DNA from: Herbaspirillum robiniae
Lineage (GTDB): Bacteria; Pseudomonadota; Gammaproteobacteria; Burkholderiales; Burkholderiaceae_D
DNA length: 64,000 nt
Direction: 5' to 3'
Assembly: GCF_002213415.1 (NCBI RefSeq)
Contig: NZ_NJGU01000008.1
Location: 62,001 to 126,000, forward strand
Part shown: piece by piece, positions 23,956-28,062 of the stretch
Numbering within the stretch: position 1 is the stretch's first letter
Layout of the letters: each line of letters starts with the position of its first letter
Notes under the pieces: model-generated
The model's database searches: none
The model's input: only the letters and a program-made list of their open reading frames with translations
Told to the model about the DNA's origin: nothing
Program-made: the position numbers and the translations under genes

Positions 23956-26115
23956 TCAGATGTCGACCGGATCGACTTCCAGCGACCAGCGCGCGCGCGT
24001 CCTGATCTGCCGCAGCAGGGCCAGCCATTCCTTCAGGAAAGCCTGCAGCGCCGGGCGCGATGCGCATTCGACCAGCAGCTGGGCGCGCTCGGTATTGGCC
24101 ACGCGCATCATGGTCATCGGTATCGGCTCGTTGATGGTGATGGCGGGAGCGTCGAGGATGTTCGCCGCCTCCTTCAGGAAAGCCATCGCCTGCTCCAGCT
24201 CGCGCGCCTCGGCGCGCAGCAGCGCCTGGTACATGAAGGGCGGGAAATACGCCTGGCGGCGCTCGTCCAGCAGTTCGCCGGCAAAGCCGTCGTAGTCGTG
24301 GCGCGTGACCGCCTGGTACAGCGGGTGGTGTGGATAGCGCGTCTGGATCAGCACCTCGCCCGAGCTGCCGTCGGCCGACAGCCCGGCCCGCCCGGCGCGG
24401 CCGGCCACCTGCATCAGCTGCGCGAACAGGCGCTCGCTGGCGCGGTAGTCGTGCGAGAACAGCGCGGTATCGGGGTTCATCACGCCCACCAGCGTCAGTT
24501 TTTTGAAGTCGTGCCCCTTGGCCACCATCTGGGTGCCGATCAGGATGTCCACCTCGCCGCGATGCACACTGTCGAAGGCGCTCTGGGCCGAGCCCTTCAG
24601 GCGCGTGGAATCGGCGTCGATGCGCAGCACCCGCGCCTCCGGGAAGATCGCGTGCAGCCCCTCCTCCACCCGCTGGGTGCCGCGCCCCAGCGGCTGCAGG
24701 TCGACGTTGCCGCAGGTCGGGCAGGATTTGGGGATGTGCAGCTCCAGGCTGCAATGGTGGCAGCGCAGCCGGCGCTCGGGGCGGTGCACCACCATGAAGG
24801 CGTCGCAGCGCATGCAGTTGCTGATCCAGCCGCAGGCGTCGCAGGCCAGCACCGGCGCATAGCCGCGCCGGTTCAGGAACAGCAGCGACTGTTCGCCATG
24901 CTCCAGGCGCTTGCGCACGGCGGCGATCAGGGTCGAGGTCAGGCCGTCGACCGGCTTGTCGCGCTCCATGTCGATCACCTTGACCTTGGGCAGCACCGCC
25001 TGCTGCGCCGCGCGCTGGCGCAGCTCGAGGCGGCGGTAGCGGCCGGCCTGGGCATGCTGCCAGGTCTCCAGCGACGGCGTGGCCGAGCCCAGCACCACCG
25101 GGATGCCGAGCTGGTGCGCGCGCCAGACCGCGAGGTCGCGCGCCGAGTAGCGCAGGCCCTCCTGCTGCTTGTACGAAGGGTCGTGCTCCTCGTCGATGAC
25201 GATCAGCTTCAGGTGCGGTAGCGACGACAGGATCGCCAGGCGCGTGCCCAGCACGATATGCGCCTGGCCCAGGTGGGCCGCCAGCCAGTTGCGGGCGCGC
25301 TCGCCCTCGGCCAGGCCGCTGTGCAGCGCCACCACGTTGAGGTGCGGGAAGCGCGCGCGGATGTTGCCTTCGAGCTGGGGCGTCAGGTTGATTTCCGGCA
25401 CCAGCACCAGGATCTGCGCCGGCGGGCCGTCCTGCGGCGGCCGGCCGTCTGCCTGCGCGGCATCGGCCGCGCGCCGCAGGATGGCGGCGGCGGCTTGCAG
25501 GTAGACCTCGGTCTTGCCGCTGCCGGTGACGCCGTACAGCAGCAGCGGCGCGAACGCATCGGCGCCGGCGATGGCATCGACCGCCTCCTGCTGGGCGGCG
25601 TTCAGCGACGGCGCGGGGCCGAACTGCATGGGATCGGGCAAGGCCTGCGGCTGTTCTGCGGCCGGCAGCTCGGCCGGATCAACCGGCTCGGCCCCGGCGG
25701 ACCTGGCTTTGGCCTTGCGCTTCTTCGGCGCGGGCGTCTTGTCCAGGGCCTTGAGCGCCTTGTCCAGCGCCACCGTGGTCAGCGCGCGCAGGTTCTTGGG
25801 CAGGCCGGGCAGCATCACCTCGCCCAGCGGACGCTGGTAATAGTCGGCGGCAAAGCCGCACAGCGCCAGCCAGTGCGCCGACAGCGGCGCCATCTGGCGC
25901 CGCACGGCAATGACGTTCTTGATCTTGTCGGCGCCCAGCTCGCTGGCCTGGACATGGCCGACCACCACGCCGACCGCCTCGCGCCTGCCGAAAGGCACCA
26001 CGACCAGATGACCGATGGCGGGAATCGCCTCGCCCTCTTCCTGCGGCCGCCAACAATAATCGAAGACGGTATGCAAGGGGGTATCGAGGGCGATCTGGAG
26101 GATGCGTTGTTCCAC
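23956..26115 (-). CDS. priA: Primosomal protein N' (replication restart helicase)
   Basis: 719 aa, near the usual length. Starts with GTG. Order: N-terminal 3'-DNA-binding domain, Walker A GVTGSGKTEVY near residue 200, DEEH box (VIDEEHDPSYKQQEGLRYS), a zinc cluster with eight Cys (CDAC, CMRC, CHHC, CPTC), and the helicase C-terminal lobe with IGTQMVAKGHDF. PriA reloads the replisome at stalled forks. A Pro/Ala/Lys-rich insertion lies at about residues 130-165. Upstream is a 715-bp non-coding region containing DnaA-box-like sites, which also must hold its promoter. Confidence 0.96.
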   Translation of the reverse strand: MEQRILQIALDTPLHTVFDYCWRPQEEGEAIPAIGHLVVVPFGRREAVGVVVGHVQASELGADKIKNVIAVRRQMAPLSAHWLALCGFAADYYQRPLGEVMLPGLPKNLRALTTVALDKALKALDKTPAPKKRKAKARSAGAEPVDPAELPAAEQPQALPDPMQFGPAPSLNAAQQEAVDAIAGADAFAPLLLYGVTGSGKTEVYLQAAAAILRRAADAAQADGRPPQDGPPAQILVLVPEINLTPQLEGNIRARFPHLNVVALHSGLAEGERARNWLAAHLGQAHIVLGTRLAILSSLPHLKLIVIDEEHDPSYKQQEGLRYSARDLAVWRAHQLGIPVVLGSATPSLETWQHAQAGRYRRLELRQRAAQQAVLPKVKVIDMERDKPVDGLTSTLIAAVRKRLEHGEQSLLFLNRRGYAPVLACDACGWISNCMRCDAFMVVHRPERRLRCHHCSLELHIPKSCPTCGNVDLQPLGRGTQRVEEGLHAIFPEARVLRIDADSTRLKGSAQSAFDSVHRGEVDILIGTQMVAKGHDFKKLTLVGVMNPDTALFSHDYRASERLFAQLMQVAGRAGRAGLSADGSSGEVLIQTRYPHHPLYQAVTRHDYDGFAGELLDERRQAYFPPFMYQALLRAEARELEQAMAFLKEAANILDAPAITINEPIPMTMMRVANTERAQLLVECASRPALQAFLKEWLALLRQIRTRARWSLEVDPVDI

Positions 26116-26175
26116 GAACTTAATGTAATTCCTGAAAAACCGGGCTAACTATTGGTTTCATTGGTATTTTTTGAG

Positions 26176-26198
26176 CTATCCACAAATACTGTGGATAA
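26176..26198. promoter_or_regulatory. DnaA-box-like inverted pair 1
   Basis: CTATCCACA on the plus strand (8 of 9 to TTATCCACA) and, 5 bases later, TGTGGATAA, a perfect DnaA box on the minus strand at 26190-26198. Confidence 0.6.
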
Positions 26199-26306
26199 CT
26201 TTGGGGACAAATCGCTATTGACAGGCCCTGCCTCAAGCTGGGGGCCGTTTACAATGAAATGCCCAAATCCAAAGCAAAAGAATTAACCCAATAAAATCAA
26301 CAACTT
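26176..26306. repeat. Imperfect duplication, copy A
   Basis: About 130 bp that align base for base, with roughly one single-base gap, to 26541-26672. Conserved blocks are the box pair, GTGGATAACTTT, TTGACAG, TTTACA, GAAATGCCCAAA and CAATAAAATCAACAACTTA. Confidence 0.85.
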
Positions 26307-26374
26307 ATATTTTTATTCCCGCGCCGGAAAAATTTTTGGCGAATTTTTTTTCGCCTGCCGCCGCGCCCCTTCGA

Positions 26375-26383
26375 TGTGCATAA
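26375..26383 (-). promoter_or_regulatory. DnaA-box-like site TTATGCACA
   Basis: Matches the relaxed consensus TTWTNCACA on the minus strand. It lies 185 bp from the perfect box of copy A, almost the same distance as its counterpart in copy B. Confidence 0.5.
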
Positions 26384-26540
26384 GTCCCGCCGGCGGGTAC
26401 CGGTCATGGACATTTGTCAAGCCTTTGCCGACAGCGTCGCACCGGAAATTTCCTACCCGCACCTTCGTCGGTCGTCCTACAAATTTAAAGTAAAACTTCA
26501 AAAGCGGCCGTAAACGGCGGTTTCATAAGCGCTTTTGGCC

Positions 26541-26563
26541 TTATTCACAGTTCTTGTGGATAA
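26541..26563. promoter_or_regulatory. DnaA-box-like inverted pair 2
   Basis: TTATTCACA on the plus strand (fits TTWTNCACA) and the perfect box TTATCCACA on the minus strand at 26555-26563, spaced as in copy A. Confidence 0.6.
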
Positions 26564-26672
26564 CTTTGTTGAAAAGTGCCTCTTGACAGCCCCGAGACCC
26601 ACCAACGATGCGGTTTACAGCGAAATGCCCAAAAGCGCGGCACAAAAATACACCAATAAAATCAACAACTTA
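26541..26672. repeat. Imperfect duplication, copy B
   Basis: Partner of the segment at 26176-26306, about 365 bp further on. The middle part (about 30 bp after TTGACAG) has diverged, while the flanking blocks are nearly identical, which suggests that those blocks are functional. Confidence 0.85.
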
Positions 26673-26741
26673 GAAATACGGCCGGACCAAACAAATCCGC
26701 ATGACGATATTAGTGATTCTCAATATGGCGTCGGCCAAAAA

Positions 26742-26750
26742 TGTGCATAA
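26742..26750 (-). promoter_or_regulatory. DnaA-box-like site TTATGCACA, second copy
   Basis: Same 9-mer and flanking AAG as at 26375, placed 187 bp from the perfect box of copy B. Confidence 0.5.
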
Positions 26751-26830
26751 GTGGCGATCGATCTTGCCAAAAGCATCATTTTCTGCGCCAAGCCGGTTCA
26801 CGCGCCATGCTGCACATGAACCGGGGGCCT

Positions 26831-27910
<1,080 letters not shown>

Positions 27911-28062
27911 GGGATCGACCTGGAAGCTATCGTGCGTCAATCCGCCATTATCTCATCCAACGCGCAGCGCTTCCGGCCTAATTGTCGGTATAGCCCTGCG
28001 CTGATATTGACGCAGGTCGTGGCGGGCCGTTTTTGACTCCGCCACGGCCTGCGCGAGCCGCC

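Follow-up and report, generated by a model that had tools for sequence, protein, structure and literature searches.

DnaA is the protein that starts chromosome copying, and its recycling by DARS and datA has been worked out in E. coli; the species that the cited papers name are gammaproteobacteria near to it. All three boxes of the DARS core are needed there; in datA, an IHF site lies between DnaA boxes 2 and 3, and box 7 is essential. According to passages of PMC4245941, DARS2 needs IHF, and the position of the IHF site matters: much activity is lost when the site is moved 5 bp away from the core and less when it is moved 10 bp away, while shifting it closer to the core lowers activity greatly, whether by 5 or by 10 bp. 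A passage of PMC8682772 compares, in species near E. coli, the full-consensus box V and the Fis sites that DARS2 carries beyond its IHF site. Part of a 2023 review (PMC10380432) credits the finding of DARS-like sequences in many proteobacterial species to the 2009 paper that defined DARS, so that conservation of such sequences as such is not new.

For reference, the DARS1 and DARS2 boxes of MG1655 were assigned by geometry, guided also by the map positions and features that passages in PMC5742627 and PMC4245941 describe. They start at 2608 (+), 2622 (-) and 2634 (-) of the DARS1 locus (L116) and at 1636 (+), 1650 (-) and 1662 (-) of the DARS2 locus (L115), i.e. at offsets of 14 and 12 in both. 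Two IHF-like sites 3 bp apart lie beyond the DARS2 core, in agreement with passages of the same two papers, and a Fis consensus is present beyond the IHF site at 1781 in L115. In four E. coli loci, a core scan with fixed rules picked out DARS1 and DARS2 along with one site neighbouring DARS2; in 400 kb of a relative it found none.

The window analysed here is the whole stretch of 64,000 nucleotides. Within it, a gap of 715 bp separates two genes on the minus strand:

23956 to 26115, minus strand: priA (replication restart helicase), NCBIfam TIGR00595, 541.6 bits, over the cut-off
26831 to 27940, minus strand: hemE (uroporphyrinogen decarboxylase), the upstream neighbour, NCBIfam TIGR01464, 414.1 bits, over the cut-off

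The sequence-only reading had reported six DnaA-box-like sites within 575 non-coding bases of this gap, well above chance, and all six were recovered where it had placed them. The claim about chance was borne out by 3000 first-order Markov simulations, in which the simulated 715-bp gaps had the dinucleotide make-up of the real one: five exact TTATNCACA sites were observed against a simulated mean of 0.025, and six sites with at most one mismatch, a count that 1 of the 3000 simulations reached, against a mean of 0.63. Five of the six exact sites of the window fall inside this cluster. Across the window in full there is no such enrichment, with 14 box-like sites against 12.66 expected; the signal is a local cluster of boxes and not a window-wide total. 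A search against Rfam gave no RNA match at E <= 1 in positions 25900-27100 of the window.

The boxes belong to two copies of one element, arranged as follows:

26172 to 26386, plus strand: element copy 1 (priA-proximal), core, then IHF site, then distal box; profile R1, 91.6 bits, E 8.9e-27
26176 to 26184, plus strand: copy 1 DnaA box I, CTATCCACA, 1 mismatch, preceding box II by the 14 bp seen in E. coli DARS1 and DARS2
26190 to 26198, minus strand: copy 1 DnaA box II, TTATCCACA
26202 to 26210, minus strand: copy 1 DnaA box III, weak, TTGTCCCCA, 2 mismatches, 12 bp beyond box II
26295 to 26307, plus strand: copy 1 IHF consensus, AATCAACAACTTA, 96 bp after box II
26375 to 26383, minus strand: copy 1 distal DnaA box, TTATGCACA, 67 bp after the IHF site
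26539 to 26753, plus strand: element copy 2 (hemE-proximal); profile R1, 84.2 bits, E 1.8e-24
26541 to 26549, plus strand: copy 2 DnaA box I, TTATTCACA
26555 to 26563, minus strand: copy 2 DnaA box II, TTATCCACA
26567 to 26575, minus strand: copy 2 DnaA box III, TTTTCAACA, 1 mismatch
26660 to 26672, plus strand: copy 2 IHF consensus, AATCAACAACTTA, 96 bp after box II
26742 to 26750, minus strand: copy 2 distal DnaA box, TTATGCACA, 69 bp after the IHF site

Both R1 scores are those of sequences that are themselves among the 34 on which the profile was trained. The duplicated layout proposed earlier takes the form of two copies of about 215 bp, 365 bp apart and identical at 140 of 207 aligned positions, each with the inverted box pair and the further site 185-187 bp on; the AT-rich stretch placed between them is in fact a set of AT-rich runs (around 26270-26353) inside copy 1. 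In addition, both copies contain a perfect IHF consensus as well as a weak third core box, neither of which that reading had described. Along the plus strand, the order is box I (+), box II (-), box III (-), IHF (+) and distal box (-) in both, with 14 bp from box I to the inverted box II, 12 bp from box II to box III, and the IHF consensus starting 96 bp past the end of box II. Both ihfA and ihfB are present.

We consider it probable that the locus is a tandem-duplicated, IHF-bent element of the DARS2 type, which would turn ADP-DnaA back into ATP-DnaA; this function we infer from the architecture alone. Among the options that had been offered for the locus, a reactivation locus fits best, given the DARS core spacing, the IHF site and the distal box, while an origin is poorly supported. 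Our own initial reading was datA-like, and a DARS came to be preferred over it because the 14/12 core was found. In the window copies, box I opposes boxes II and III at the DARS1 and DARS2 spacing, and the IHF site lies beyond the core in a fixed phase (96 bp; 94-99 bp in 73 elements from relatives; 86 bp in E. coli). Fis sites corresponding to FBS2-3 beyond the IHF site, and a mid-arm place near mutH and rppH, as in DARS2, were not found.

The Fis sites were examined across two sets of related elements. A perfect Fis consensus beyond the IHF site occurs in 2 of 30 elements collected across the class and in 1 of 53 Burkholderiales elements, and is not enriched. Between core and IHF site, a Fis-like palindrome is present within a 7-bp range in the class elements, perfectly in 12 of 30 and with at most one mismatch in 25 of 30, against at most 2 and 11, respectively, in control ranges; the corresponding Burkholderiales counts (4 of 53 and 16 of 53) are within the control range. 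This palindrome (GGTTANTTTTTAACC-like) lies about 34 bp before the IHF site in the class loci (L118-L147), on the opposite side of IHF from the Fis site of E. coli DARS2.

A search with hemE gave 80 named loci, nearly all from Burkholderiales with a few from Neisseriales and one Gallionellaceae record. The priA-hemE gap could be cut out of 76 of them, making 77 gaps with the window. A perfect IHF consensus is present in 67 of the 77, and the loci, 925 kb in all, have 125 perfect matches, about 104 of them inside the gaps, which make up about 4% of that DNA. The distance from box II to IHF is 94-99 bp in 73 elements from 64 gaps. In these 73 elements, the box III position carries at most two mismatches in 96% and the box I position in 52%, against a background of 1.8%; besides boxes I-III, the sole register above 25% is -11 in reverse, at 26%. 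Roughly half of the Burkholderiales elements have a degenerate box I.

Profile R1, which includes the distal box, matches 76 of the 80 hemE loci at E <= 0.01, and 62 of 66 when the 14 training loci are set aside. The loci without a match at this threshold are L003 and L014, whose contigs end within or near the gap, L041, where no priA was found behind hemE, and L059. This comparison of the gap in related genomes is one that the sequence-only reading had proposed as a check. Copy number ranges from 1 to 4 across loci and genomes: 25 of the 76 matching loci have at least two copies in the gap, one of them three, and R1 finds two full copies each in the genome studied here and in all seven single-contig genomes of the genus. 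The relative G034 has four tandem copies (L176:1155-2330; G034:C1 near 5746333-5747515), with distances from IHF to distal box of 69, 59, 60 and 48 bp, one helical turn apart. More widely, these distances form classes of 66-70 bp (48 rows), 58-61 bp (26 rows) and 47-48 bp (7 rows) with none between, in a table whose rows are kin by descent and include some loci twice, owing to a second match at box III. If the complex is looped, such distances would have to change by roughly a helical turn at a time, and the observed steps fit this. In two Undibacterium loci, a weak match (22-24 bits) was seen upstream of hemE, on the side opposite priA (L013:5559-5735 and L019:5596-5800).

A datA-type element was weighed as a rival, in which IHF and DnaA boxes would stimulate hydrolysis of DnaA-bound ATP after initiation (DDAH). 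The datA of E. coli (4.39 Mb, glyV-X-Y / queG) has the same order and like orientations, namely a box, 56 bp, IHF, 84 bp and a box, and the gaps in our elements are similar, with 47-70 bp between distal box and IHF and about 82-87 bp between IHF and box III. Its distance of about 0.47 Mb from oriC, derived from positions given in PMC5742627, resembles that of our element from dnaA, which is 0.35-0.83 Mb, or 6-17% of genome length, in eight single-contig relatives. However, datA is without the 14/12 core and has instead an inverted partner box 12 bp away, and such an inverted offset-12 partner is absent from the window element. Applied to four E. coli control loci, R1 also prefers DARS2 (28.8 bits) and DARS1 (25.0 bits) to datA, whose best match (20.3 bits) is out of register, and gives 14.5 bits for oriC. 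We regard the datA-type explanation as rather unlikely and prefer the DARS2-type one.

Conservation extends beyond the priA-hemE gap. A pattern composed of box II, part of box III and the IHF site was found in 42 of 370 genomes of the class, which as sampled here covers the former gamma- and betaproteobacteria, and its reversed control in 0 of 370. Thirty loci (L118-L147), the window's own included, were fetched by this pattern with flanks of 1.5 kb or less. Although absent from the pattern, box I was found 14 bp off in 25 of 30, and 22 of 30 have the distal box at 67-72 bp, each with at most one mismatch; no further box offset between -60 and +300 reached 4 of 30. At E <= 0.001, R1 matches 352 of 377 class genomes, partial and weak matches included, and 219 of 299 phylum genomes, many of those outside the class being partial. 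Scoring covered six or seven candidates in each genome, and pairs of DnaA boxes of another kind may account for some of the weak matches. As background, 800 kb of stretches from the relative G015 gave nothing under E 0.08 outside the element. Core-only matches were seen in genus relatives too, and a DARS1-like triple without IHF (box I TTACCCACA, offsets 14 and 12) stands at L193:1504-1538 (G000:C14 near 638960), flanked by frames that we take, by eye, to encode an htpX-type protease and a GGDEF protein.

The neighbours of these loci bear on whether the element could be an operator through which DnaA and IHF control priA or a hemE-priA transcript. In the window, the gap lies upstream of priA, whose start points toward the element, and the core of copy 1 starts 61 bp from the assigned start codon. 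Moreover, priA adjoins the element in three class loci (L118, L132 and L138) where hemE was not found beside it. On the other hand, box I stands anywhere from 27 to 470 bp away from priA over 52 loci, the E. coli DARS sites are not next to priA, and 24 of the 30 pattern loci are without priA within flanks of 1.5 kb or less, the gene being found in the other 6. The neighbouring genes vary between genomes and include what we take, reading the sequence by eye, to be aroE, hemW and others. Neither dnaA nor mnmG was found within these flanks in any of the 30 loci, and two positive controls for dnaA (L081 and L094) did match. An operator role seems to us quite doubtful as an explanation. A passive sink that titrates DnaA, with box number alone mattering, would account for the dense boxes and for a copy number of 1 to 4, but it needs no fixed order, orientation or spacing and no IHF site at constant distance, and we hold it to be very improbable.

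Within the matches listed, 46 of at least 42.9 bits in 31 genomes lie 0.1 to 2.5 Mb from dnaA, a tally that leaves out matches under 42 bits and the second members of most tandem pairs. Weak partial matches (20-23 bits) occur nearer to dnaA in some relatives, for example at about 6 kb in G005 and about 40 kb in G031. In the genome studied here, the dnaA-dnaN spacer (L081) has six boxes within 400 bp. The GC skew of G015, sampled in forty 20-kb stretches, is weak, with its minimum at about 0.385 Mb, itself 0.385 Mb from dnaA, and its maximum at 2.51 Mb. The element of G015 is at 4.39 of 4.99 Mb; the sampled skew does not turn there, and the element-bearing sample has a positive skew (+0.022), while the samples on either side are negative. 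With 5 boxes per 600 bp, the element is the densest place among 41 stretches (0.82 Mb) of this genome, in which no dense box cluster was found within 20 kb of dnaA. Two other places in G015 are of note: two inverted box pairs, with members 157-158 bp apart and repeated 727-728 bp on, lie 6-7 kb upstream of dnaA (L225:12964-13857) and could bear on the location of its origin, and four DnaA boxes in 600 bp near 1.643 Mb (L211:18133-18480) coincide with weak two-strand R1 matches (E >= 0.087).

A main or accessory replication origin, to which the box pairs, IHF sites, AT-rich runs and the box-dense element of G015 might point, was rejected as hardly credible from the distance to dnaA (at least 0.1 Mb for every tallied match, and far in the eight relatives) and the skew, with reservations for the weak skew of G015, the positive skew of its element-bearing sample and the lack of a dense box cluster near its dnaA; the element is neither near dnaA nor at the skew minimum, and in the genome studied here the spacer beside dnaA holds boxes. 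E. coli oriC also has DnaA boxes and a bending-protein site, but matches R1 over 55 positions at 14.5 bits.

Returning to the DARS2-type element, the data show at the sequence level a plan of a core with DARS geometry, an IHF site at fixed distance and a fourth strong box, with spacings kept across relatives. In such an element, two DnaA-ADP molecules would face each other head-to-head at boxes I and II, box III would take a third, and IHF would bend the DNA at its site, so that the distal box and its DnaA would be brought beside the core. The strained complex would then release ADP, the freed DnaA would take up ATP, and the cell would thereby regain its competence to initiate at the right stage of its cycle. 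With two copies, lying at about 10% of chromosome length from dnaA, the reactivation capacity would presumably be greater. DnaA binding, looping and ADP release at the element are steps that we infer. The weak box III of copy 1 speaks against this reading. Our main doubts concern the elements of Burkholderiales, roughly half of them, whose box I is degenerate, and the lack of a Fis consensus, together with the origin-near place unlike that of E. coli DARS1 and DARS2 and the half of the plan that is common to datA.

A broader and possible, if doubtful, proposal is that core, (Fis), IHF and distal box represent the ancestral DnaA nucleotide switch of the class, predating the E. coli set and tuned by tandem copying. 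Taken as a whole, this proposal would have DARS2 keep the core with IHF shifted by a turn, datA keep the half from distal box through IHF to box III and lose the core, and DARS1 keep the core alone; lineages would afterwards copy the switch in tandem, with up to four copies in the priA-hemE gap. In our literature searches, in which "datA" reads as "data" and is hard to search for, we found no paper recognisable as describing a DARS or datA element, either for the priA-hemE gap or for any betaproteobacterium by name. As far as these searches show, the priA-hemE site, the tandem copies and the genome count are apparently new, and so is the shared plan, in which IHF stands at 96 bp and the distal box, inverted, at about 188 bp. 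A searchable fixed plan, matched with partial matches included in nearly all class genomes scored, would open initiation timing to study in Burkholderiales and in many groups besides. The natural variation in helical-turn steps would reveal which spacings are essential, the tandem copies amount to a natural dosage experiment, and the origin of datA and DARS2 would become testable.

Compared with the two DARS elements of E. coli, the window copies share the core of DARS1 (0.81 Mb, bioD-uvrB) in identical geometry; unlike them, DARS1 has no IHF consensus, with at most one mismatch, at the expected place. DARS2 (MG1655 2.97 Mb, rppH-mutH) agrees further, as its core has the same offsets and orientations and its IHF site (IBS2) lies beyond the core on the same strand. 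A DnaA box of full consensus, TTATCCACA, is present distally in DARS2 as well, 197 bp from the start of box II; we take this box to be the published box V. The differences are that IHF stands 86 bp from box II in DARS2 and 96 bp in the window (+10 bp), that the distal box of the window is inverted relative to that of DARS2 and lies at 185-187 bp, that DARS2 has one functional core where the window has two copies, and that the window element lies beside priA and hemE, not mid-arm near mutH and rppH. A degenerate second element is seen 316 bp past the DARS2 core (L115:1949-2105; R1 19.9 bits), where 96 bp separate box II from an IHF-like site, and DARS2 itself may therefore be the remnant of an old tandem pair.
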